The position numbers and the translations under genes were made by a program. 23,090 bases of DNA, from IMG/VR virus record IMGVR_UViG_3300030107_003218, positions 5,133-28,222 of that record. One strand, 5' to 3'. Under the pieces are notes generated by a model. That model was not told where the DNA came from. It ran no database searches and saw only the letters and a program-made list of their open reading frames with translations. Shown piece by piece: positions 3,381 through 21,931 of this stretch. The stretch comes from a virus. The first letter of the stretch is position 1. The number at the start of each line of letters is the position of its first letter.

Positions 3381-4897
3381 ATCTTGTACCTATACGGTGA
3401 TTGTGATTCCACGACATGCAAGTTATGCCGCGCTCGTGTAACAGCGGTATAGAACACTCGGTGTTCATCATCCTGTTCAGGATTGTTCACCGCCGGCCAT
3501 GAAGAGTCAGTTAGCAACAGGACGTTGTCGTCCTCGCCGCCCTTCATGCGGTGTATGGTAGATAGACTGATACGAGGCTTTGTAAGATCCTCACCACGGC
3601 GCCGAACAGCGCCCATGTATCGGATGTCCTCGTTGGACATATTGACCACTACCTCTGGTCTTGTGTCCTGTGGTGCAATCAACCCATGCTCTGCAACCAG
3701 ATTGTCATAGTTGTGTGTGCCCTGCGGATCGACAGCATCAAATGTTTTTGCTGCGGCACGTTTCAATAGTGCCTTACTCCCTGTCTTTGGCATGTAGGTG
3801 TACATCTTCTTGATCTCACCCACATTAGCAGTCTGCCCCTTTGACAGTCGCTCCCATACGTTCATGGCCTCAAGCAGTTCAAGCGAGATCACAGACTTAC
3901 CAAACCGTTCAAATAAATATCCGTCATCGCGTAAAGTATGGTGAATTTTGTTCAAGGCTTTGTTGGTTCTAGCCATAATTGTCCACGAACCTTCATCAAT
4001 ATTCACATCATACCAATTCATGTGAAAATCTACGCTTCCGTCCTCATCGCGTGGACGCCAGTTCTTTTCCTGTCTGTATTGTATCCTGTCCACAATCTCA
4101 TTAGCCAAATCAAAGACCGTCCTTGGCACACGGTAACTTTTATTCAATACTGTCTTGTTGTCACAAGCGTTCATGAAACTATGCAAATCAACACCATTCC
4201 AACGGTGGATGCACTGGTCATCATCGCCTGCATACCAAACCCTTTCGGCTCGTTCCTTTAATATGTTTACCTGTTGCCATTGCAGCGGCGTTAAATCCTG
4301 CGCTTCATCCACGATCAACACTTCAAGCGCAGGTCCTGTCGCTTGCTGCACGAATAGTTCAATCATGTCTGTAAAATCAAACTTACCAGTATCAGATTTG
4401 TATTCTTTATATATCGCATCCACACGGCGTAGCATTGACCAATACAGATCATAGTCCCCAAGGTCGTTGTACTCTTCCTCCAAAGACACACAGCGTAATT
4501 TGGCACGGCTAATGACATTTAAGTAACGATTGCCCTCTCTCATAGATATGGGTATCAGACCCTCTTCCATGACCTCTGCGGTGCTACGATCAAACTCCAT
4601 ACCTAACGTGTTGCTCAACACACGAAGATCACTAGGTTGTATCGTTTCGTGCTTCTCCATGCCCAGCCAATTGAAGCCTATCGAGTGTAGTGTCCTGAAC
4701 CACGGAACATCCTTTTCGGTAAGCTGGAGCGTTGAACTCACACGCGATCTGGCTTCTTCTATCGACTTACGAGAGAAGGACACAAAGCCAATACGATCAG
4801 GCGGTGTGCCATTAGCCAACTCTTGGCGCACGATCTCAATCATGGTGTGCGTCTTACCGCAACCAGGTGGACCAAAGATGAGTGACTCTTCAGCCAT
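3377..4897 (-). CDS. UvrD/Rep-like SF1 DNA helicase
   Basis: A 506-aa ATP-dependent DNA helicase. Visible motifs in order: Walker A GPPGCGKT (9-16), a THS-like RTLHSIG element near residue 68-74, Walker B VDEAQD (196-201), motif III GDDDQCIHRW (224-233), motif IV SYRVP, motif V STIHRMKGGE, and motif VI VFYTAVTRARHNL near the C terminus. The ATG at 4897 is chosen over an ATG at 4936: it overlaps the upstream HTH stop by 8 nt, has GGGA upstream and places Walker A at the usual N-terminal position. The shape resembles phage Dda/UvrD-type helicases that assist replication or recombination. It may supply the unwinding activity, since no DnaB-type helicase is seen. Confidence 0.92.
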   Translation of the reverse strand: MAEESLIFGPPGCGKTHTMIEIVRQELANGTPPDRIGFVSFSRKSIEEARSRVSSTLQLTEKDVPWFRTLHSIGFNWLGMEKHETIQPSDLRVLSNTLGMEFDRSTAEVMEEGLIPISMREGNRYLNVISRAKLRCVSLEEEYNDLGDYDLYWSMLRRVDAIYKEYKSDTGKFDFTDMIELFVQQATGPALEVLIVDEAQDLTPLQWQQVNILKERAERVWYAGDDDQCIHRWNGVDLHSFMNACDNKTVLNKSYRVPRTVFDLANEIVDRIQYRQEKNWRPRDEDGSVDFHMNWYDVNIDEGSWTIMARTNKALNKIHHTLRDDGYLFERFGKSVISLELLEAMNVWERLSKGQTANVGEIKKMYTYMPKTGSKALLKRAAAKTFDAVDPQGTHNYDNLVAEHGLIAPQDTRPEVVVNMSNEDIRYMGAVRRRGEDLTKPRISLSTIHRMKGGEDDNVLLLTDSSWPAVNNPEQDDEHRVFYTAVTRARHNLHVVESQSPYRYKI

Positions 4898-5111
4898 CGC
4901 TCTTTTCCCTTGGCCTTGCCTTGATCCATTCTTCAATTTCGGTGCGTAACCAACGTGTCGTACTGTTCTTGTCGTTTTCAGGTCCGAGCACGAGAGGTTT
5001 TGGGAAATGTCCTGTTCTCACCCATTTGTATATGGTTGTTCTTGCCACTCCCAAGGCTTCTGCCACTTCACCAACCTTGAGATACTCTTCGTTATCAGAA
5101 GGGTATGTCAT
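4890..5111 (-). CDS. AlpA/MerR-like helix-turn-helix DNA-binding protein
   Basis: A 73-aa protein that is essentially one winged HTH: EYLKVGEVAEALGVARTTIY, then a KWVRTGHFPKP turn and a RWLRTEIEEWIKAR helix. This is the classic layout of AlpA regulators and of excisionase-like HTH_17 proteins. It may act as a transcriptional regulator or as a recombination or replication accessory factor. The gene sits between primase and helicase in a replication operon. No integrase is in the window, so an excisionase role has no partner here. The start has GAGGAG seven bases upstream and lies inside the last codons of the primase gene. Confidence 0.85.
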   Translation of the reverse strand: MTYPSDNEEYLKVGEVAEALGVARTTIYKWVRTGHFPKPLVLGPENDKNSTTRWLRTEIEEWIKARPREKSDG

Positions 5112-11790: not shown

Positions 11791-11961
11791 CTTCTTCGGG
11801 GGACGACCCCGCTTCTTTTTCGGGGCTTTCCCATCCTTCCAAGCCTCGTTGATGGTCGGGGTCTTCTTGTTGTCACCAACTAGCCGACCCTTCTTATCCC
11901 TAGCTCTTTCGGGTTCCGAAAAGCATGTCGGGAAAAGTAGTCTTAAAAATTTATCTATCAT
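11782..11961 (-). CDS. Small AT-hook protein (C-terminal hook)
   Basis: A 59-aa protein with a C-terminal AT-hook, KKKRGRPPKKKK, preceded by a short segment containing TPTINEAWKDGKAP. AT-hooks bind the minor groove of AT-rich DNA through the RGRP core. The start overlaps the preceding AT-hook gene by 11 nt and the stop abuts the bidirectional terminator. It is the last of three consecutive AT-hook genes. No other domain is recognised; a nucleoid-associated or DNA-compaction role is inference. Confidence 0.75.
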   Translation of the reverse strand: MIDKFLRLLFPTCFSEPERARDKKGRLVGDNKKTPTINEAWKDGKAPKKKRGRPPKKKK

Positions 11962-12178
11962 TTACTTTCTCCAGTTGTTTTTCCCGATCACCTAATGTTT
12001 GAACGTTTCGGGCGAAATAGGTTTGTTTAATTATGACAGCAAGTTGTCGAGCAATCGTCCGATCCTCCATTCCGGCTAACTCCCTGATCATTTCATAAAC
12101 CTCTATCGGGACAGCAACGTTACGAAACGTTGCCTTTTCATCCTCCTCTTTTGAAGGTCTTCCTCTTTTCGGGGGCAT
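11951..12178 (-). CDS. Ribbon-helix-helix-like protein with N-terminal AT-hook
   Basis: A 75-aa protein: the AT-hook MPPKRGRPSKEE at residues 1-12, then a segment ATFRNVAVPIEVYEMIRELA with the beta-strand-helix pattern of an RHH (CopG/Arc-like) domain, ending in a charged helix. RHH proteins dimerise and bind operators; adding an AT-hook would extend contacts into AT-rich flanks. It starts immediately after the upstream stop (TAA-ATG, with AGGAGG inside the previous gene). A host or phage transcription regulator is the likeliest role. Confidence 0.8.
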   Translation of the reverse strand: MPPKRGRPSKEEDEKATFRNVAVPIEVYEMIRELAGMEDRTIARQLAVIIKQTYFARNVQTLGDREKQLEKVNDR

Positions 12179-12400
12179 TTAATCCTCCTTTCTTGGTCTG
12201 CCACGTTTTTTCGGGGCGGGGGCAGCCTGCACATAAACCTGATGTTCTGGGTCATATACAAGATTATTTTGATCGGCGACCTGGACTAGGTTCGCAATCA
12301 CTCGCATGTCGGTATCCTCCAAAAGATACCGAATCAGCTTGCCTCGCAGCAGGTTCAACGTGTCGTTGACCAAATATTTAGTCTCTACTGACATACTCAT
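12179..12400 (-). CDS. Small protein with C-terminal AT-hook
   Basis: A 73-aa protein. Residues 1-55 are predicted helical (TLNLLRGKLIRYLLED, then IANLVQVADQNNLVYDP) and the last 12 are an AT-hook, PKKRGRPRKED. The AGGAG site is only about 2 nt from this ATG, so the second ATG two codons later (12394) may be the true start. Its AT-hook lies a few codons from the N-terminal hook of the next gene, separated only by a stop and a start. No family is recognised for the helical part. Confidence 0.75.
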   Translation of the reverse strand: MSMSVETKYLVNDTLNLLRGKLIRYLLEDTDMRVIANLVQVADQNNLVYDPEHQVYVQAAPAPKKRGRPRKED

Positions 12401-13371: not shown

Positions 13372-13480
13372 TTCTTCCTCCATAAATCTGGAACCAACAG
13401 TCTGTGCAGAGGAATATCTTGCCGTCCTTTGCATCGGCTTTATTATCACAGTTGTTACATTTACTTATCGACAGCATCAT
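13262..13480 (-). CDS. Small zinc-ribbon protein, long overlap with next gene
   Basis: A 72-aa ORF whose N-terminal part has CNNC (C8, C11) and CTDC (C25, C28), a zinc ribbon. Residues after about 36 are Arg/Gly/His-rich and look like the shadow of the other frame. Possible readings are a real 72-aa protein overlapping the 51-aa gene, or a single gene broken by a frameshift near 13371. The start overlaps the methyltransferase stop by 20 nt. Confidence 0.5.
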   Translation of the reverse strand: MMLSISKCNNCDNKADAKDGKIFLCTDCWFQIYGGRNGKSKRMVNGHGGGCHVHVARRMVREAWRERDRGLS

Positions 13481-14810
13481 GTATTCCCTTCAACAAGTGA
13501 CAGATAACATCAATGGTAAACCCATTTCCTAGCATGCGATAGCGTTGGGTGTTTGAAACGTGCGCGGTGTAGTTGTCCGGCACTGTTTGCAAACGCTCAC
13601 ATTCAACAGGCGTCAGCTTGCGCCAACGCAATTCACTCTCGCTTACAACCACATTGTCCTTATCAACGGTTGTCAGACAGTTTGACTTGTCATCTGTGCG
13701 TGTCTCAACCTTTTGTGTAAATGGAACTGACTTGTCATCATCCATACGGTCACCCTTATAATTCAGCCTCCGGTTGACAATGCGACCCATTACAAAATTG
13801 TTTTGTTCCCATGCCGAACCGCTCACGGTTGGAACTTTACCGTCTTTTGCTTTAATACCGCCTTGGTTCTTACCCCTTGGCACTTGCAATATTTTCGGTT
13901 CAAGATTGCCACCAGATGCCGCCGCCAATGTCGGCGCCTTGCCATCAGGATGATAAACCCTGCGGTTATAATCATGACCTTTAAGATCGGCTTGCCCTGC
14001 CATGACCAAACTTTCGTTTGTTTCCGGTTCGCCAAAATCAAATGACATTTGCCGCGTTTCTTTGAAATAGTTATATGGCACGCCCTTATGTATGTTGGCC
14101 GTGAGCGTGAATGACTTTTCGGTGTCGGGCGTTTGCTCATATCCATCCGCTCTTCTTGATCCGGCTTGTGACCACTTATCATTGCCACGCTCCATATACG
14201 CGACAGACTTCATGCTATGATAATGTTCTTCGCCTATCTCGCTCACATCCTGCAAAATGTCTTTAAGATATATACGTTTGTTTTCGGGCAACGACTTGAC
14301 TGGGATGTTTGTCCAATACAAACGATCCCGATTCTGCGCCGATACGATATTGGAATTTATCCGAACAGGTTTTACGCCCAACTGTTCGTTGATAACGTCC
14401 TGATACAATTGTTTCATCGGAACGTTTTCCAACAGGAAATACTTGGGCTTTAACGCCCTCAACAGGCGAACGAATTCAAAAAATAATTTGCTCCGCTCAT
14501 CATCAAAGTTCAATTGCTTGCCAGCAAACGAAAAACCTTGGCAAGGTGAGCCGCCTATCAATAAATCTATTTGCCTTCTATATGCACCTTTTTCTATATC
14601 CTCACCATTATGAGCAACAAACAATCTACCATCTATAGTTTCAAGTTTGGTCACATCACCCACATGCACCGTGTCAGGATAGTTTGCCTTTGCAACTTGG
14701 ATCGCGTACTTGTCGATCTCACTTGCGAAATAATTTGTAACAGGAAAGCCTGCCCTATCAAGGGCAAGCCTTCCACATGACATACCGTCAAACAGAGATA
14801 AAACGTTCAT
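13461..14810 (-). CDS. dcm: DNA (cytosine-5) methyltransferase
   Basis: A 449-aa C5 methyltransferase that adds a methyl group from SAM to cytosine in DNA. Motif I is LFDGMSCG (6-13), motif IV GGSPCQGFS carries catalytic C90, motif VI is LENV (127-130), motif VIII is QNRDRLYW (159-166), and motif X is RMLGNGFTIDV near the C terminus. The region between VIII and X (about 200-395) is unusually long and holds the target-recognition domain. The ATG at 14810 shares one base with the upstream stop (TAATG). No restriction endonuclease is adjacent, so it is probably an orphan enzyme protecting phage DNA. The target sequence cannot be read from the protein. Confidence 0.95.
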   Translation of the reverse strand: MNVLSLFDGMSCGRLALDRAGFPVTNYFASEIDKYAIQVAKANYPDTVHVGDVTKLETIDGRLFVAHNGEDIEKGAYRRQIDLLIGGSPCQGFSFAGKQLNFDDERSKLFFEFVRLLRALKPKYFLLENVPMKQLYQDVINEQLGVKPVRINSNIVSAQNRDRLYWTNIPVKSLPENKRIYLKDILQDVSEIGEEHYHSMKSVAYMERGNDKWSQAGSRRADGYEQTPDTEKSFTLTANIHKGVPYNYFKETRQMSFDFGEPETNESLVMAGQADLKGHDYNRRVYHPDGKAPTLAAASGGNLEPKILQVPRGKNQGGIKAKDGKVPTVSGSAWEQNNFVMGRIVNRRLNYKGDRMDDDKSVPFTQKVETRTDDKSNCLTTVDKDNVVVSESELRWRKLTPVECERLQTVPDNYTAHVSNTQRYRMLGNGFTIDVICHLLKGIHDAVDK

Positions 14811-15289
14811 TACCAACTCGCTTGATATTCAACAGAGTGCCAGAACATTTCGTTTTGCTGATCACCGTCCAACCAGCTAGCGGCTCTCTCAAAAATCTCC
14901 GCATCTTCATCGGCACATTCTCGTAATTCGTCCCACCATTCCTTATCACCAAAGAAGAACCCACCACATCTATCGTTCGGCGGTAGCGGAGTAGAGGCAT
15001 CGCCCCTCAACACACTAGCGATCCATCGCAAATCTTCGGCATGCAGATCAATCGGACGACAATTATCTTCGCCGTTAGCAAAAGCATCAACGATAAGTTG
15101 ATGCAGAGGCGCATGCTTACGCCAATACCCCAACTCAAGTTTTTCGCTGGTGCGCTTATAATCATCGACAAAGACTTCATTAATCGGAATAATCCCACCA
15201 TCTTCATCGCGTAGGATATTACCGTTATCATCTCTCGCGTATTGAGTGCGCTGAAATTTATCTCCAGTCAGATACATATCTAGTCCCAT
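14810..15289 (-). CDS. Phage protein of the MGLDMYL type, unknown function
   Basis: A 159-aa protein beginning MGLDMYLTG, a start shared by a widespread family of unknown function in phages and bacteria (recalled). Other visible elements are LELGYWRKHAPLH, then NCRPIDLHAEDL. It is acidic and has two Trp-rich patches. Start and stop are both TAATG junctions, so it is coupled to the gene before and to the methyltransferase after. A second in-frame ATG nine bases upstream has no support. Confidence 0.7.
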   Translation of the reverse strand: MGLDMYLTGDKFQRTQYARDDNGNILRDEDGGIIPINEVFVDDYKRTSEKLELGYWRKHAPLHQLIVDAFANGEDNCRPIDLHAEDLRWIASVLRGDASTPLPPNDRCGGFFFGDKEWWDELRECADEDAEIFERAASWLDGDQQNEMFWHSVEYQASW

Positions 15290-15489
15290 TATCCCCAATC
15301 CTTTCTATCTTCCTCGTTATCCCAACCATCCTTGTATTCGGCAATTTGTTGTTCAGTCATAAAGATCTGATGAACCCGACCCCCCATCGCAACGCCCTTA
15401 CCTGTGCCGTAAGGATAATAATGTGGTTCGTACTGACGACCATAATATCTGTCAGCCGAACCACGATCCCTTGGACTACCGTTTTTCAT
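15289..15489 (-). CDS. Small phage protein, Tyr/Gly/Arg-rich
   Basis: A 66-aa protein with GSADRYYGRQYEPHYY near the N terminus and a MTEQQIAEYKDGWDNEEDRK stretch near the C-terminal end. The pattern recurs in phages, but I cannot name a family or role. AGGAGC precedes the ATG, and the stop shares a base with the next start (TAATG). Confidence 0.65.
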   Translation of the reverse strand: MKNGSPRDRGSADRYYGRQYEPHYYPYGTGKGVAMGGRVHQIFMTEQQIAEYKDGWDNEEDRKDWG

Positions 15490-16479: not shown

Positions 16480-16547
16480 TTTAATTGTTATACCAATACG
16501 CGCTACAACATGCAACCTATATATAGTGTCTTATGGTTTTGGTTCAA

Positions 16548-16816
16548 TTTGTTACATTTGTTACAGTTCTCCCGTGAAAAAAAACTTTTGAAAATTTTTT
16601 CAAATGGGGTGTAACAAGTGTAACAAGTGTAACAAGAGTTCTTGAAATATAAGCGCAGCGCCTGTTTGACCTTGTTACACTTCTCACGATTTTTGTTACA
16701 CTTGTTACACTTCTAAGGCGTTTTTCCCCTGTTTTTGAGATTTTTAGAAATTTTTACCCAATAAAAATTTGCAAAATCGTCACTCTATACGATACAAGTG
16801 TAACATGAGTGACAAG
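16548..16816. repeat. Array of TGTAACAAG 9-mers in both orientations (operator, origin or packaging site)
   Basis: The 350-bp divergent gap 16455-16804 holds no gene but is full of a 9-bp unit. In plus orientation: three perfect contiguous copies at 16610-16636, TGTAACATG at 16799-16807 over the terS start codon, and weaker copies directly before and after it (16790-16798, 16808-16816). In minus orientation: TTTGTTACA twice in tandem at 16548-16565, CTTGTTACA at 16671-16679, and a tandem pair at 16692-16709. An AT-rich dyad (TTTGAAAA-TT-TTTTCAAA, 16587-16604) lies between the first two blocks. Contiguous 9-bp repeats in two orientations plus an AT-rich core fit an iteron origin, a multi-site operator controlling both operons, or a TerS recognition (pac/cos) site. 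Confidence 0.85.
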
Positions 16817-17383
16817 AACACCGACATTCTTGCAGATGACATAGACGTAGCGACTGGACGCAAACTGACAAATCGTCAAAAAGAGTTTGCTCGTTTATAT
16901 GTTGAAGGTATTTACTCCAACGCTGAATGCGCGAGACGGGCTGGATATGCTTCTGCATCAGCCGCTAGCATTGCCGGTCATTTACTAGCCGGCAAAAAAT
17001 TTCCTCATTTAATCGATCACATACAAGAGTTACGCGAAGAGCGTGAACGCAGATATGGCGTCACGATCATTGGTCAACTAAAACGGCTACATGATTTGTC
17101 TGCTGGCGCCGAAGAAGCTGGACAATTTTCAGCCGCTATAAATGCAGAAAAGATACGATCTGCACTTGGTGGGTTGACTGTCGATAGGCGTGAACAGATT
17201 CACCAGCTTGACGATTTGTCACGAGAAGAGATCACCGCAAGACTGTCACAACTTAGACAACAATATCCTCAAGCATTTATTGAGGGTGAATTTACAGAGG
17301 TCAAAGATGCCGACACCAGAGGTGAACTTTTGGAACACGTTGAAACGAAACCTACCAAAGAACTGTCACACAACGCGAATTGA
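16805..17383 (+). CDS. terS: Terminase small subunit
   Basis: A 192-aa DNA-packaging protein. The N-terminal domain has the terminase-2 pattern LTNRQKEFARLYVEG, then NAECARRAGYASASA and the following LLAG element, an HTH for recognising packaging sites. A helical charged segment (REERERRYG) follows, then an oligomerisation-type region and an acidic tail. It would bind pac/cos DNA and load the large subunit. No terminase large subunit follows; the next gene is a nuclease. The ATG at 16805 has no clear Shine-Dalgarno site and sits inside a TGTAACAAG-like repeat, so expression may be autoregulated. A TTG at 16769 is an alternative start. Confidence 0.88.
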   Translation: MSDKNTDILADDIDVATGRKLTNRQKEFARLYVEGIYSNAECARRAGYASASAASIAGHLLAGKKFPHLIDHIQELREERERRYGVTIIGQLKRLHDLSAGAEEAGQFSAAINAEKIRSALGGLTVDRREQIHQLDDLSREEITARLSQLRQQYPQAFIEGEFTEVKDADTRGELLEHVETKPTKELSHNAN

Positions 17384-17768
17384 AAACCGCCATGGTGGTG
17401 GCGTTCCTGACGTACATATAGTATGGGCAGGGCTTGTGTTTTGGTTAGAATTAAAAACAACAAAAAACAATACTGTCAGACTGTCTCCAAATCAAATTGC
17501 TTGGAATACCGCGTATTCGCGTTCGGGGGGCTTGTCTTTCATCTTGGTTAAGCACCTCTCTTCGGGCGACCTATTTTTGTTTCGGGGTTCGGGATCATTG
17601 GATGTCGGGCGTTCGGGACTGGCGGCAGAAGCCGTGTTCCAAGGTTCGGGGTACGATAACCTATGGGCAGCAATTCGGGAGTCGGGTTCGGGGTTCGGGA
17701 CTTCGGGGTTCGGGGATCATCGAGCCTTGGACCAGGGGTCAGGGGCTGGGGCACCAGTACAACAGTAA
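17307..17768 (+). CDS. VRR-NUC family nuclease with repeat-encoded C-terminal tail
   Basis: A 153-aa protein. Residues 1-92 are a VRR-NUC (PD-(D/E)XK) domain: E5, RIENRHGGGVPD with D35, ELK with E48 and K50, and Q63 in SPNQIAW. Such nucleases cut branched or structured DNA and accompany phage helicases. Residues from about 93 on are Gly/Ser/Phe-rich (FRGSGS, QGSGY, SGSGFGTSGFG) and are the translation of the TTCGGGG repeat cluster. This tail is not part of the family, so the repeat seems to have invaded the 3' end of the gene. The ATG at 17307 has AGAGG six bases upstream and overlaps terS by 77 nt. The ORF is open upstream without a supported start. Confidence 0.8.
   Translation: MPTPEVNFWNTLKRNLPKNCHTTRIENRHGGGVPDVHIVWAGLVFWLELKTTKNNTVRLSPNQIAWNTAYSRSGGLSFILVKHLSSGDLFLFRGSGSLDVGRSGLAAEAVFQGSGYDNLWAAIRESGSGFGTSGFGDHRALDQGSGAGAPVQQ
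17521..17718 (+). repeat. TTCGGGG repeat cluster 1 (G-rich on plus strand)
   Basis: Around ten irregular copies of TTCGGG(G), the densest at 17581-17592 and 17684-17715, interspersed with unique sequence. The cluster overlaps the 3' coding part of the VRR-NUC gene and lies just beyond the leftward terminator at 17798-17817. The same unit recurs at 18985-19014 and 20131-20179, always G-rich on the plus strand. Confidence 0.85.
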
Positions 17769-17790
17769 CGATAAGCTGTGCCTGGCCGAT

Positions 17791-17817
17791 AGTAAAAGAG
17801 GAGGCTTACGCCTCCTC
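17791..17817 (-). terminator. Leftward intrinsic terminator
   Basis: An 8-bp stem GAGGAGGC / GCCTCCTC (17798-17805 with 17810-17817), loop TTAC, followed in the minus direction by TTTT. The stop codon of the last gene of the unit lies in the loop. It ends the 18883-17806 unit. Confidence 0.8.
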
Positions 17818-17982
17818 CCTCAAAAACTCTTTCAACCGTTTCTCCGGTTCGTCTAGGTATTGAAACAAACACTCAATAGCCGTGTAGTCTCGGTACTTAA
17901 CATCTTCGAGAATCTCATTAACCACATCGGTTAACAGGTTTAAATCAATTTCTTGATCAGGATCCAAGTGTCTATTTGTCAT
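17806..17982 (-). CDS. Small acidic protein, last gene of its unit
   Basis: A 58-aa ORF too short for common cut-offs. Its ATG overlaps the upstream stop as ATGA and its TAA lies in the terminator loop, which strongly supports it. The protein is acidic and helical (LNLLTDVVNEILEDV; then YLDEPEKRLKEFLREEA). Its neighbour upstream has a similar acidic helical character, and the two may work together. No family is recognised. Confidence 0.7.
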   Translation of the reverse strand: MTNRHLDPDQEIDLNLLTDVVNEILEDVKYRDYTAIECLFQYLDEPEKRLKEFLREEA

Positions 17983-18284
17983 GATGATTCCTCTTTTAAT
18001 TCTTGATACATACGTCCACTTGAAAACAAATCTTCTATGTTTTCAATAATGCAATTTTGATAGAGATCCTCTGCCGTTGTGTGAAGTGTTAGTTGAAACG
18101 GAAAAGATTTAGCATTTTGTATATCATCTAGAATCATTTCCAAATCTTCATAGTTTGGGCAATCCTCCAAACCATCCTCTCGATACATTTCTAGATGTGC
18201 TTCAATTTCATTCGTGACAGCGTCCGCAATCTTCTGAGAGTTTATTTTTCCGCCATACAATTCTTGAATCACTACTGACATCAT
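17979..18284 (-). CDS. Uncharacterised acidic protein
   Basis: A 101-aa acidic protein, largely helical, with KIADAVTNEIEAHLEMYRED, then a CPNYEDLEMILDDIQNA stretch. The ATG at 18284 overlaps the upstream stop as ATGA and has GGAGG eight bases before it; the longer ORF start at 18341 lies inside the upstream gene without support. No family is recognised. Confidence 0.7.
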   Translation of the reverse strand: MMSVVIQELYGGKINSQKIADAVTNEIEAHLEMYREDGLEDCPNYEDLEMILDDIQNAKSFPFQLTLHTTAEDLYQNCIIENIEDLFSSGRMYQELKEESS

Positions 18285-18883
18285 TTTACTGCCTCCACAA
18301 TAGTTGTTACGCCATTGTTTATTGTGTAGCACAATAAACAATCTTTACATTTTTGACCGGTGCAATTTTGGTCAACGTCACTACCTTTTGAAACATTGTT
18401 AAACGTGCGGTCAAAATGTTTTGGCGGTTCATTCATTACCGCGTCAATGCGTGGGTTTGAATAAATCAAGATAAGATTCGCGGGTTTGTCATTCTTCGCG
18501 TAAAAATCGTTGATCAGATTTTTGCGCTTAGTCCACAATGCAAAATCACAATGTGGATTGTGTATCGTGATATTGTGCAGATTTTCTAAATGAATGCGGT
18601 TGATTAACTCGCCATGGCCTGAAAATCTGAAAAACGCGTCTAAAATAGTTGGTAGCATATGCGGAGGAATCAGCCCTCCCGATAATATGTCGCTATTTTT
18701 TTGCCATGCGGGCACGCAATTTTTACGCAAACCTTGTAGCATTTCGGCAGAATAACATTTTGTGCAGATGATATCATCCTTGCCGCTATTGTACATTTTC
18801 ATGCAAAATTCGTTAGATAACGTATTTGTATTTAATGCTTTGAAACCGGACAATTTGCCGGTCATATTTGATATTTTCAACAT
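18281..18883 (-). CDS. GP88-like Cys-rich phage protein
   Basis: A 200-aa protein resembling the phage GP88 family of unknown function: an N-terminal NTLSNEFC...CTKCYSAEM segment, a central HCDFALWTKRKNLI segment and a C-terminal cluster NCTGQKCKDCLLCY. The CxxCY and CxxxxCxxCxxCY patterns suggest a bound metal or iron-sulfur cluster. The ATG at 18883 has GGAGG eight bases upstream and is preferred to one at 18898. It is the first gene of a three-gene unit. The family link is by memory and moderate. Confidence 0.65.
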   Translation of the reverse strand: MLKISNMTGKLSGFKALNTNTLSNEFCMKMYNSGKDDIICTKCYSAEMLQGLRKNCVPAWQKNSDILSGGLIPPHMLPTILDAFFRFSGHGELINRIHLENLHNITIHNPHCDFALWTKRKNLINDFYAKNDKPANLILIYSNPRIDAVMNEPPKHFDRTFNNVSKGSDVDQNCTGQKCKDCLLCYTINNGVTTIVEAVK

Positions 18884-18912
18884 TGTTAAAGCCTCCATTA
18901 TTTAACAAGTAA

Positions 18913-18941
18913 AGTATAAGCAAAAAACAAACCAAAAACAA
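18913..18941 (-). promoter_or_regulatory. Candidate promoter of the GP88-like unit
   Basis: Read leftward: TTGTTT (18936-18941), 17-bp spacer, TATACT (18913-18918), then TTA, about 30 bp before the ATG at 18883. The T-rich spacer and the TTGTTT element resemble the candidate promoter before 20053. Confidence 0.5.
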
Positions 18942-18984
18942 GCGCAATCATTCGGGAGATTAGCCAGGAAAATCGGGTAGCAGC

Positions 18985-19014
18985 GGGTTCGGGGTTCGGG
19001 GTTCGGGGTTCGGG
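18985..19014 (+). repeat. TTCGGGG repeat cluster 2, G-quadruplex motif
   Basis: Five G-tracts of 3, 4, 4, 4 and 3 bases separated by exactly TTC, in 30 bp: a textbook G-quadruplex-forming motif on the plus strand. It is intergenic, between the terminator at 19024-19047 and the promoter of the 18883 unit. Confidence 0.92.
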
Positions 19015-19015
19015 A

Positions 19016-19047
19016 TAATAAAAACGGGGAGCCTCGAGGCTCCCCGT
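19016..19047 (-). terminator. Leftward intrinsic terminator (24-nt perfect palindrome)
   Basis: ACGGGGAGCCTC and its exact complement form a 24-nt palindrome at 19024-19047, followed in the minus direction by TTTATTAT. It ends the 20053-19096 unit. Confidence 0.8.
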
Positions 19048-19049
19048 CC

Positions 19050-19070
19050 TACTAGTATGGAGGACTAGTA
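19050..19070. repeat. Inverted repeat TACTAGT-N7-ACTAGTA
   Basis: Perfect 7-bp arms around ATGGAGG, between the last gene of the unit (stop at 19096) and its terminator. It could be an operator or an additional RNA hairpin; no function is evident. Confidence 0.6.
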
Positions 19071-19095
19071 TTTAATCCTCGTGACCAGCTGGGTT

Positions 19096-19200
19096 CTAAT
19101 CCTCATCCTTAATGGCTATGTAAAACATTGCTACCAGTGCGACAGCATAGAAGATGAGACAGCCTATCATAAACAGGCTGTCCCATTGGATGTTATGCAT
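19096..19200 (-). CDS. 34-aa single-pass membrane peptide
   Basis: A 34-aa ORF: a short N-terminus (MHNIQWD), one hydrophobic segment of about 22 residues (SLFMIGCLIFYAVALVAMFY and two more), and a charged tail IKDED. The ATG overlaps the upstream stop by 8 nt. The topology fits a small phage inner-membrane protein, perhaps holin-like or a host-membrane modulator. The ORF is very short, so the call rests on position and hydrophobicity. Confidence 0.5.
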   Translation of the reverse strand: MHNIQWDSLFMIGCLIFYAVALVAMFYIAIKDED

Positions 19201-19423
19201 TGCCATAGAGTTTGTCCGACTCTTCGTCAGTCAGATTGAATCTACCGCAGGGTGATTTTGTCCGATCTGTTATCATGATTCCGTCATGTTCAAATGCTTT
19301 GCGCTTTTGCGGAATGTTTGTTAACCCCAAAAGTTTTTGCGTAACAGTTGGGAGGGGCTTGGGCTGTTTGATGATATGCCTTTCGCCTTTCTTATCTGGC
19401 CGTGTCACATAGACGTATGTCAT
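19193..19423 (-). CDS. Uncharacterised basic protein
   Basis: A 76-aa basic protein with a Lys/Pro-rich N-terminal region (KQPKPLPTVTQKLLGL) and a C-terminal CGRFNLTDEESDKLYG. GAGAGG lies about eight bases before the ATG. No family is recognised. Confidence 0.65.
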   Translation of the reverse strand: MTYVYVTRPDKKGERHIIKQPKPLPTVTQKLLGLTNIPQKRKAFEHDGIMITDRTKSPCGRFNLTDEESDKLYGNA

Positions 19424-19435
19424 GATGCTTTCCTC

Positions 19436-19834
19436 TCAACCACATTCTGCTTCAAACACGCATTGCCCGTGCTCAGTAATAGACCCTAGAATTTTAGAGC
19501 CTAAACGATGCCTTGCATACCATTTTAAAAGATGATTAACGCCCTCCTCCGTGAAACGAAAAGGATGCGTATGCTCATTAAGATATTCTCTCAACTGTTC
19601 ATTATTGTAAGTGCTGTTGATTTCAAAAAACTTATCTAAATGAGGCTTGGCATCGCCTAATTCCTTAAGACATTTTTCCAAGCCATCACGCACACCAGAT
19701 TCATCATCTTCATAAAATGAATATTCAAGACGCTCAGGTTGATAGCCTGTTACGCCAAAAAAATCTGCATCATCGGTTGGTTGCACAGCAAACCAAAACT
19801 TGCCTTCAATATCGCCTTGATAATATCGTCCCAT
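19436..19834 (-). CDS. Uncharacterised phage protein (MGRYYQGDIEGKFWF type)
   Basis: A 132-aa acidic protein beginning MGRYYQGDIEGKFWFAVQPT, a start I recall from other phage and bacterial proteins of unknown function. The middle is helical (LEKCLKELGDAKPHLDKFF) and the C terminus ends in CVFEAECG. AGGAGG is at ideal spacing before the ATG. Confidence 0.72.
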   Translation of the reverse strand: MGRYYQGDIEGKFWFAVQPTDDADFFGVTGYQPERLEYSFYEDDESGVRDGLEKCLKELGDAKPHLDKFFEINSTYNNEQLREYLNEHTHPFRFTEEGVNHLLKWYARHRLGSKILGSITEHGQCVFEAECG

Positions 19835-19843
19835 TTTATCCTC

Positions 19844-20053
19844 CTATAGCATTTCTATCATATCTGCGAACAAATCTTCGCAGTCTGCATGCGTCCGATA
19901 TTGACCATCATTCACCTGTTGCTGAACCATCATCATCATTTGTGCAGTTTTGAAATGAGGCGTTGTGTCTGTCACCTTATTACCATCTGCATTTGCAATG
20001 TAATAATCACAAGGTAAATTAGGCGTATTATATTGCTTTATCTGATATTCCAT
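19844..20053 (-). CDS. Uncharacterised protein
   Basis: A 69-aa protein with an N-terminal beta-rich part (PCDYYIANADGNKV), a Met-rich stretch (TAQMMMMVQQQV) and an acidic end. The ATG at 20053 has GGAGG five bases upstream; the ORF start at 20080 lies in the promoter leader. First gene of its unit. No family is recognised. Confidence 0.65.
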   Translation of the reverse strand: MEYQIKQYNTPNLPCDYYIANADGNKVTDTTPHFKTAQMMMMVQQQVNDGQYRTHADCEDLFADMIEML

Positions 20054-20085
20054 TTTGTCCTCCATATAGACAGTTAACATGAATC

Positions 20086-20113
20086 ATTATATACAAAAAC
20101 AATCAAAAAACAA
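20086..20113 (-). promoter_or_regulatory. Candidate promoter of the 20053 unit
   Basis: Read leftward: TTGTTT (20108-20113), 16-bp T-rich spacer, perfect TATAAT (20086-20091), then GGAGG and the ATG at 20053. It lies right next to TTCGGGG repeat cluster 3. Confidence 0.6.
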
Positions 20114-20123
20114 ACAAAATCCT

Positions 20124-20179
20124 GGGTGTCGGGTTCGGGTTCGGCTCGGTCATTATTCGGGTTCGGTTCGGGTTCGGGA
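20124..20179 (+). repeat. TTCGGGG repeat cluster 3
   Basis: GGGTGTC followed by several TTCGGG units, some shortened to TTCGG, with six G3 tracts in 56 bp on the plus strand. It lies between the stem-loop cluster and the promoter of the 20053 unit, the same arrangement as cluster 2. Confidence 0.85.
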
Positions 20180-20254: not shown

Positions 20255-20281
20255 AAAAAAAGAGGCGCCTAGCGGCGCCCC
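20255..20281 (-). terminator. Leftward intrinsic terminator
   Basis: Read leftward: an 8-bp stem based on GGCGCC-GCTA-GGCGCC (one G-U pair; plus-strand 20262-20269 with 20274-20281), followed by seven T (20255-20261). It ends the 21172-20317 unit. Confidence 0.85.
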
Positions 20282-20316
20282 TCATCTTATCGTTGTTCAA
20301 ACACCAGCTGGTGTCG

Positions 20317-21172: not shown

Positions 21173-21499
21173 ATCTAACCCTCCATAGTTAGTTTGCTTT
21201 GGGGTCGCTTGGCTATTGCCTTCCGATTTCCCTTAATGTCTTACGACATTAACACAACATCGCACTACATACAACACATAATCCACAAATAAAACACAAG
21301 TTTTAATCTATCACCTGATAGGGGTTACTTGGGTTTATCGGGCGGGGTGCGTCAAATATTTGACCCCCTACCCCCTTGACAAAAAAACGGGTCGGCGCCA
21401 CCCACCCACCCGCCCTAGTCGGGTACATTTATTCCTGTGTTTTTCCATTCGACCAAGGTTCAGGTTGCAAGATCCACAATTAAATTGTAGGAATGGCCT
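21173..21499. promoter_or_regulatory. Divergent intergenic region with two palindromes
   Basis: A 327-bp gene-free region between leftward and rightward units. It contains a perfect inverted repeat TTAATGTC-TTAC-GACATTAA (21233-21252), probably in the leader of the leftward unit, and a 14-bp perfect palindrome GTCAAATATTTGAC (21351-21364), a good operator candidate. A TTGACA at 21376 has no -10 at the right distance. The strand is strongly G/C-skewed around 21340-21415. Confidence 0.55.
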
Positions 21500-21931
21500 A
21501 TGGAGTCCCAGGCGCCAGAAAAAAATTCAGATGTAAATTCATTTGAGATGTTAGGTCGAATGTTACCGTTACTGGTGACGGCACCCGTGTATCAAGACAG
21601 GAGCATCTCGGAACTTGGCACACGGATCATGGCTGCTGTGGCGAGTGGTAAGATACGATATTACTTTCGTGGGCGCAGTTTGATTGGTTTTGTGACTTGG
21701 GCTTACTTCACATCTGAGGAGGCACGCACTTCGGAGTTTGACTGGAATGAGGTATTGATGCGGAGTGAGGGGGAGGAGTTGTGGATAGTAGACATGGTAG
21801 GGCTAGATAGTGTACTCTACATTGGTAGAGACATTCGCCGTTATTTGAGTGAAACGACAAATCATAAAGTTGCGTATTGGCGCAGGAGCAAAAACGGGCG
21901 CAGGCTCGGCAAGGCTTGGAGACTTAGATGA
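21500..21931 (+). CDS. HlyC-like (RTX toxin-activating) acyltransferase homologue
   Basis: A 143-aa protein resembling HlyC toxin-activating lysine acyltransferases: LGRMLPLLVTAPVYQDRSIS aligns with the HlyC N-terminal helix, LIGFVTWAYFTSEE with its AYCSWANLS, and GEELWIVDMVGL with its RKWFIDWIAPFG. Asp98 matches catalytic HlyC D92. The residue facing catalytic H23 appears to be Tyr31, so the classical acyl-ACP activity may be lost or altered. AGGA lies seven bases before the ATG. It is coupled by ATGA to a virion-type gene, suggesting action on, or assembly with, a structural protein. HlyC-like domains occur in some phage structural clusters, but their role there is unclear. Confidence 0.7.
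   Translation: MESQAPEKNSDVNSFEMLGRMLPLLVTAPVYQDRSISELGTRIMAAVASGKIRYYFRGRSLIGFVTWAYFTSEEARTSEFDWNEVLMRSEGEELWIVDMVGLDSVLYIGRDIRRYLSETTNHKVAYWRRSKNGRRLGKAWRLR

Follow-up and report, generated by a model that had tools for sequence, protein, structure and literature searches.

Between the small and large terminase genes (terS and terL) of an uncultured phage family that is related to known sea phages lie arrays of a short, repeated word. The arrays run on one strand, keep their place from genome to genome, have a polarity that is independent of transcription and switch from one word to another within homologous flanks, and the class of word does not follow the terS tree. We tentatively favor an explanation in which these are directional arrays bound by a putative protein reader, a real possibility that in our judgment falls somewhat short of probable.

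Repeat Arrays in the Window

The DNA analyzed here (the window, 23,090 nucleotides) belongs to a virus record of 28.2 kb that is collinear with uncultured phages. The original prediction described three clusters of a telomere-like 7-bp unit, all G-rich on the same strand. The one-strand clusters are real: of 31 copies of TTCGGG in the window, 30 are on the plus strand (shuffle mean 8.8, largest 16), and so are all 13 copies of TTCGGGG (shuffle mean 2.0). TCGGG outnumbers its complement CCCGA by 46 to 7, and the three clusters hold 24 of the 46 TCGGG and none of the seven CCCGA. Array 1 (17522..17714, plus strand) has 13 TCGGG cores and lies mostly within the 3′ end of an open reading frame, which therefore has an array-encoded tail (containing GSGFGTSGFGDHR); array 2 (18951..19014, plus strand) has six cores, four of them as tandem TTCGGG(G), and array 3 (20128..20178, plus strand) has five. 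A core unit (TTCGGG/TCGGG) is indeed shared by the three, but the strict 7-mer did not survive, as the spacing varies from 5 to 8 bp; among 14 genomes with TCGGG-type arrays, cores are 7 bp apart in 88 cases, 6 bp in 49, 5 bp in 19 and 8 bp in 13. The term telomere-like is supported by nothing more than the appearance of the repeat unit. Local assembly error is ruled out as the source of the clusters because the arrays recur at matching positions in independent contigs. A looser scatter of TTCGGG is also found at 11795-12215, within small genes.

The small terminase, TerS (16805..17383, plus strand), matches PF03592 Terminase_2 with 32 bits (cut-off 26.1) and phrog_51, terminase small subunit (4.5e-12). 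The gene carrying array 1 in its 3′ end (17307..17768, plus strand) encodes what we take to be a VRR-NUC-like or Hjc-like nuclease; it matches phrog_93 (endonuclease) and phrog_5702/843 (resolvase), its top match is phrog_2165, labeled DNA helicase, and Pfam Hjc scores 16.1 bits, under the cut-off of 21.1. Arrays 1 and 2 are separated by a GP88-like gene (18281..18898, minus strand; PF17338 at 17.8 bits, under the cut-off of 24.4), and arrays 2 and 3 by a small gene (19436..19834, minus strand; phrog_33624). Each cluster had been placed beyond a leftward intrinsic terminator, which a stem-plus-T scan and a folding test bear out: minus-strand terminators lie at 17798-17817 by array 1 (fold z −4.6), at 19024-19047 by array 2 (−4.5) and at 20261-20282 by array 3 (−5.3), each folding better than 200 of 200 shuffles, and a stock terminator scan of the window found, of these three, the one by array 3 alone (at 20260-20283). 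T-rich promoters following clusters 2 and 3 can be read by eye but are absent from a stock scan.

Conservation of Place among Relatives

Most relatives have arrays at equivalent places, which extend towards terL from the 3′ end of the nuclease gene adjoining terS, and the equivalence holds down to about 60% TerS identity. The counterpart of array 1, which begins about 140–400 bp past the end of terS in related loci, is the most constant and stays within or next to a coding tail; even in G029, whose terS is at a distance of 25 kb, the nuclease 3′ end has a small TTCGGG array. Genome-wide, TCGGG-type clusters concentrate in the region after terS. The Poisson scores used in surveying the arrays are rough, with a motif-blind test serving as the control: a strong one-stranded k-mer (log10 p of at least 8) was present within the first 2 kb following terS at 78 of 103 loci, as compared with 4 of 86 regions before terS and 3 of 32 regions 4.5–6.5 kb after it. 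The 103 loci are not all distinct, since some records stand under two locus identifiers (e.g., L221/L360, L214/L372). Eighteen of the 103 fall under a log10 p of 6.6 and are without a strong repeat, so the arrays are dispensable or replaced there.

A named relative, 023Pt_psg01, whose DNA polymerase is 53.8% identical, has other repeats in its terS–terL stretch: within the first 50 kb of its 59.8 kb, all 5 copies of GGGCCCACCC and all 10 of GCTCGC lie there, as does one of the three copies of the reverse complement GCGAGC. HTVC023P has, by eye, different repeats again near terS and the nuclease gene. Contig searches for more loci gave one with an hlyC-based query and three with a DNA pattern. 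A literature search, which covered work on HTVC023P-type phages in part, found no account of such arrays.

Two Motif Classes That Switch in Place

The arrays fall into two classes, TCGGG and YTGCG, each common to all arrays of one genome. Word variants across genomes include TTCGGG, GGTCGGG, CCTGCGGC and CTTTGCGAC, and a switch takes place in situ in every array of a genome. L374 and G017, for example, have TTCGGG where G026 and G034 have CTGCGGCC; the flanks can be aligned, and the downstream gene is the same (85–86% protein identity). Class was assigned by counts after loci with less than 800 bp following terS had been dropped, which gave 39 TCGGG, 32 TGCG and 3 without class. On a terS tree of 73 rows the class changes six times, with at least one or two changes forced by well-supported branches; in a set of 23 genomes, with G029 counted as TCGGG on its small array alone, there are four changes on the best tree, two of them independent and well supported. 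Motif class is thus independent of the terS tree.

This bears on whether the arrays could be a packaging (pac or cos) site bound by TerS, in the manner of the pac boxes of SPP1 and SF6. The position of the arrays, near the terminase genes with terS on one side and terL on the other, would suit such a site, and SPP1 pac likewise has direct repeats, three sets of them by the small terminase gene (PMC4737164). However, class does not co-vary with the TerS tree, TerS recognition-helix regions differ among phages that share a word, the arrays spread across about 3 kb towards terL, and immediately before terS there is another, separate repeat, TTGTTACACT. In SF6 itself, the DNA-binding domain of TerS showed little preference for the boxes (PMC4737164). 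Overall, we consider a TerS-bound site improbable.

The arrays could also be a neutral or selfish repeat that grows by slippage, is copied by recombination between intergenic spots and survives only where genes tolerate it. The spacing of units is not the same in all arrays and genomes, sub-variants differ from array to array (a CCCGAAA run is confined to one of the arrays of L011), and a strong repeat is missing from the 18 loci mentioned above, all of which would fit. Less readily explained are the strict one-strand polarity, the positions kept in distant relatives, the repeated in-situ switches between two related classes, and the most constant array remaining in or by a coding tail. We regard neutral spread as a credible but unlikely explanation. 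A neutral repeat copied between arrays could, it should be said, also yield the class shared by the arrays of a genome.

Polarity Independent of Transcription

The arrays keep a strict one-strand polarity across genomes, and this polarity is set by the genome and is independent of the direction of transcription. In G018 and G019, one array each lies beyond a plus-strand terminator and the strand of the repeat is unchanged; the inter-array gene of G018 is a homologue (47% identity) of a gene that is on the opposite strand in G012. Association with terminators is partial: by a simple scan, 26 of the 42 TCGGG-type arrays found in 14 genomes are no more than 150 bp past a minus-strand terminator, as had been proposed, but most terminators have no array, with only about three or four of the ten same-direction terminators of G003 followed by one.

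The original prediction envisioned a G-quadruplex on the template strand of leftward transcription, acting as an insulator or roadblock to polymerase. Cluster 2 does fit the quadruplex consensus, with five G-tracts separated by TTC, as do 28 of the 42 TCGGG-type arrays, and the minus-strand terminators that precede 26 of the 42 would be in keeping with the idea. Yet none of 25 homologously placed TGCG-type arrays fits on that strand, and the polarity is the same where the terminator points the opposite way. What remains of the insulator proposal is that arrays sit at transcription-unit boundaries and do so again in relatives; its leftward-transcription mechanism is largely refuted, and we give it hardly any credence. 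The leftward RNA of TCGGG-type arrays would be C-rich (CCCGAA), which lends some appeal to a back-up terminator of the Rho/rut kind. That candidate was rejected, given that TGCG-type arrays are G-rich in the leftward direction and that polarity is not tied to the terminator.

Stoperators of Cluster A mycobacteriophages resemble the arrays in being asymmetric sites in phage intergenic spaces (PMC9283540); they are 13-mers whose orientation follows transcription, whereas the words described here are tandem hexamers whose orientation does not.

Late Proteins and Candidate Readers

Motif class agrees with the type of one large late protein in every one of 23 genomes, a concordance that derives from few independent switches: all 17 genomes of TCGGG type that were checked have family A, and all 6 of TGCG type have family B. 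With two well-supported independent switches (four on the best tree), there are too few for a test of this link. G017 is a case in point, as it has TTCGGG arrays and core genes (polymerase, primase, helicases, TerS, nuclease) that are all nearest to TGCG-type genomes; among its ORFs of more than 100 aa, two adjacent late ORFs alone match TCGGG-type genomes better, and the larger is family A. A protein neighboring family A matches a “DNA ejection protein” (phrog_4287, 2.2e-9). Four family-B genomes (G046, G050, G051 and G052) show no clear TGCG-type array. The predicted structure of late protein A has a mean pLDDT of 56.7 and a pTM of 0.33, no solved relative of it was found, and Pfam and PHROGs gave nothing usable.

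Compared by eye, none of the three candidates for a reader, a ribbon-helix-helix protein, an AlpA-like HTH protein and TerS, tracks class cleanly. The first, which also has an AT-hook-like part (window 11951-12178), is present in many relatives; it was rejected on not being found in the array-bearing G018, G019 and G029 and on having residues, by eye, that are common to both classes (e.g., G017 and G031). The AlpA-like protein (window 4890-5111) was rejected on a recognition helix that is near-identical in G017 (TCGGG) and G034 (TGCG). A known system of the ribbon-helix-helix kind that resembles the arrays is parS of pSM19035, where tandem non-palindromic 7-bp units at several promoters of one replicon are bound by omega (ParB) (PMC9499535). 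The phage arrays differ from it in their 5–8 bp spacing, in having one array in a gene tail and in that the protein was not found in those three array-bearing genomes. A spacing of 5–8 bp is also looser than would be expected for cooperative binding.

An iteron-like replication origin, with direct repeats by T-rich DNA bound by an initiator, can be weighed in the same light. T-rich stretches are found next to arrays 2 and 3, and SPP1 oriR likewise combines direct repeats with an AT-rich element, in a moron segment that has transcription signals on either side (PMC6316719); the phage segment is similarly moron-like. It differs from oriR in having several arrays with a switching motif and no initiator found. 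There is no T-rich neighbor by array 1, the most constant one, no initiator tracks class, and some relatives are without arrays, such that an origin appears very improbable.

A Possible Genome End

Contigs tend to break at a CACCCACCC element, at about 21.40 kb in the window, which may be a genome end: 5 of 19 cases lie within 40 bp of a contig end (Poisson p 3.5e-7). The arrays lie 1–4.5 kb from this place, and the last one stops about 1 kb or more short of it.

Chi sites of RecBCD/AddAB vary from one bacterium to another; they are short, asymmetric words with strand polarity, are dispersed rather than tandem in known cases, and are recognized in the orientation that points towards a DNA end. 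The phage word might accordingly be a putative signal for the host enzyme near one genome end, halting degradation and favoring recombination, with its class following the host. The words are indeed short, asymmetric and often G-rich, their class is matched by a family of late proteins with a possible bearing on host range, and 5′-TTCGGG-3′ points to the end, though only if the end is near 21.4 kb, where contigs break. Those breaks, however, may reflect a strong quadruplex sequence, and in contrast to known Chi sites the words form tandem arrays in one part of the phage genome, at one end only. On balance, a Chi-like signal seems unlikely.

A Putative Directional Reader

In the protein-reader explanation, a trans-acting factor would read a short, directional, non-palindromic word on the DNA, its polarity fixed by the genome and not by a local transcript. 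The arrays would occupy DNA that tolerates them, at transcription-unit boundaries and in codons of the nuclease tail between terS and terL, and a change of reader would lead to all arrays being rewritten in place. As a working mechanism, the factor may be met by an incoming or processed DNA end, with the arrays acting at or near a genome end; it could be a virion protein delivered with the DNA or a host enzyme that senses polarity, which would tie it to either the DNA-delivery module or the host. In its most specific form, the arrays would be a rewritable polarity code at one genome end, spelled in one word for a host or co-delivered reader and replaced throughout upon a change of DNA-delivery module and perhaps of host; we put this forward as a rather unlikely conjecture.

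If the arrays are neutral, they clearly exemplify the concerted turnover of a repeat that keeps its strand and place. If a reader exists, they form, over many phages, a natural series in which DNA words are paired with proteins, and close relatives that differ in word (G017 and L374 as compared with G024, G026 and G034) could lead to it. Were that reader a host end-processing enzyme, phage sequence alone would give the recombination signals of uncultured bacteria.

Arrays and Their Gene Setting

The window spans positions 5133-28222 of a virus record 28,222 bases long. Its plus strand holds 30 of its 31 copies of TTCGGG, against a shuffle mean of 8.8, and the right half of the record has 30 copies against 6.1 in shuffles, where the maximum was 13. 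Clusters 1 (17522-17714), 2 (18951-19014) and 3 (20128-20178) contain 13, 6 and 5 TCGGG cores, respectively, and CCCGA is absent from all three. The original prediction of one-stranded clusters at three loci, with leftward terminators nearby, is thus borne out, the terminators being found at 17798-17817, 19024-19047 and 20261-20282 (fold z -4.6, -4.5 and -5.3).

Cluster 1 lies within the 3′ end of the ORF of a presumed VRR-NUC/Hjc-like nuclease, an ORF that comes immediately after the small terminase gene terS (Pfam Terminase_2, 32 bits against a cut-off of 26.1; also phrog_51). Clusters 2 and 3 are intergenic and precede genes that read leftward. The large terminase gene, terL, of relatives is on the far side, past hlyC. 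The HlyC-like gene of the window (21500-21931; RTX toxin acyltransferase family, PF02794, 41.2 bits against a cut-off of 25) has counterparts directly ahead of the terL region in several related phages. A DNA methyltransferase gene (13461-14816; phrog_116, 5.4e-73) is near terS, and a related family occurs in most genomes compared. The small protein encoded at 11951-12178, conserved across many of these phages and without a family match, is presumably ribbon-helix-helix-like with an AT-hook-like start. Phage 023Pt_psg01 (MW574966) has an unannotated homologue of the nuclease gene between terS and the next annotated gene (about 15000-15400 of locus L160).

Conservation in Relatives

A search with a GP88-like protein as query gave 49 loci, in most of which the same word is clustered on the same strand. 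Within the parts that each record covers, the order hlyC, arrays, nuclease, terS ... polymerase, lysin is common to the TCGGG-type genomes compared, except for terS of genome G029. In that genome (L258-L260) terS stands about 25 kb away from the usual site, where the structural genes end, and the nuclease gene has stayed, along with its small array. Genomes of 54-58 kb restrict clusters of the word almost entirely to between two and four sites, which with few exceptions fall in the hlyC-terS stretch; among these exceptions is a methyltransferase-like coding sequence of G018. At most loci the arrays lie about 140-400 bp from the end of terS, then at 0.9-1.7 kb, with more up to about 3.6 kb. That they mark a replication origin is very improbable.

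A control set of 131 loci (L163-L242, L360-L410) was analysed with no motif preset. Of the stretches after terS, 103 were usable, and 78 of them had a repeat at log10 p of at least 8, compared with 4 of 86 before terS and 3 of 32 farther downstream; a level of 6.6 gave 85, 20 and 5, leaving 18 of the 103 loci below it in the motif-blind test. Most of the 20 cases before terS are a different repeat, of the GTGTGACA/TGTNACA type, and GTGTGACA and similar repeats precede terS in many relatives. The window has related repeats, TTGTTACACT and TGTAACAAGTG, in both orientations immediately upstream of terS and at its start (16546-16803). By position these are a better candidate for pac or an operator than the TTCGGG arrays, whose reading as packaging sites is quite doubtful.

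Polarity and Quadruplex Potential

The further proposal, that a quadruplex on the template of leftward transcription makes the arrays insulators, is not supported. In G018 and G019, one array lies beyond an oppositely pointing terminator, and the repeat strand is unchanged relative to terS and polymerase; the G018 gene at that array is a homologue of a G012 gene on the opposite strand (47% identity over 153 positions). Polarity therefore belongs to the genome and not to the transcript. Reading the arrays as Chi-like is rather improbable. In the second class, TGCG, the strand that is G-rich in TTCGGG arrays carries a C-rich word; richness in G is therefore not the conserved property, and a quadruplex fits on that strand in 0 of 25 TGCG-class arrays versus 28 of 42 TCGGG-type arrays.

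Switching of the Word

A terS alignment search supplied further loci, as the best 80 of at least 599 matched stretches, and by local k-mer search the words repeated in this stretch differ among relatives (TTCGGG, GGTCGGG, CTTTGCGAC, CCTGCGGC, CCTGCGCC, ACCCTGCGACC). They are nearly always one-stranded and mostly of the TCGGG or YTGCG class, and one class is common to all arrays within a genome. L374 and G017 have TTCGGG arrays, and their relatives G026 and G034 have CTGCGGCC arrays, ahead of the same gene (protein 85-86% identical), with similar promoter-side flanks that end near AAGCT(T) beside the array. By this comparison, the word has switched in place.

The switch is independent of terS and local transcription. 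Polymerase, primase, helicases, TerS and nuclease of G017 are closest to TGCG-type genomes; the terS tree (73 rows) needs 6 changes of class, 1-2 of them forced by well-supported branches, and for a 23-genome set the terS tree needs 4 and the nuclease tree 3. Among G017 ORFs longer than 100 aa, just two, late and side by side (759 and 1101 codons), are closer to TCGGG-type genomes; the genes flanking this pair have matches of 87% and 93% in a TGCG-type genome. The larger belongs to family A (about 1080 aa), present in 14 of 29 phage records scanned, a set in which many records lack this part of the genome. Of the 14, 13 are of the TCGGG type; the other, G016, lacks a usable array region. In a further check of 19 records, three of which belong to that set of 14, nine gave A at threshold and ten gave family B (about 1380 aa); one of the nine A matches, in G050, is marginal (66 residues), and this genome is assigned to B. 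Among genomes with both class and family assigned, all 17 carrying A are TCGGG-type and all 6 carrying B are TGCG-type. No clear array of either class was found in G046, G050, G051 and G052, which have B; G049 has A and was analysed without its array region, and neither family was found within the 16.8 kb of G043, the record of L374. The 297-aa neighbour in G018 has a hit to phrog_4287 (DNA ejection protein, 2.2e-9), and B has one to phrog_22602 (virion structural protein, 6.8e-18).

The arrays are thus real, conserved and one-stranded, stand at fixed places, and change word in all arrays of a genome together. We infer that a factor reads them on the DNA and that this reader is linked either to the host or to delivery of the DNA. 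The independent class switches on well-supported branches number only 2, both concordant with A/B and too few for statistics, and it is possible, though unlikely, that the arrays are neutral repeats. The literature search results contained no description of such arrays.

A Possible Genome End

A conserved segment at about 21,368-21,415, between array 3 and hlyC, contains GTCAA..TTGAC repeats and CACCCACCCACCCGCCC, the latter a very strong quadruplex motif on the minus strand. Next to it is the word GGGTAGATTYATTCMCRKG, with two bases different in the window. Among the 19 contigs containing this word, 5 have it within 40 bp of one end of the fetched piece, with 0.14 expected from contig sizes; four start at the CACCC side, and L020 stops about 40 bp past the word. 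The 57-kb genome G027 lacks about 75 bp exactly at this place. The contig breaks may reflect a genome end that has a short terminal repeat, or else the assembly may have broken at the very stable quadruplex GGGCGGGTGGGTGGG. If the genome does end there, the arrays would occupy its last 1-4.5 kb, with 5′-TTCGGG pointing at the end.
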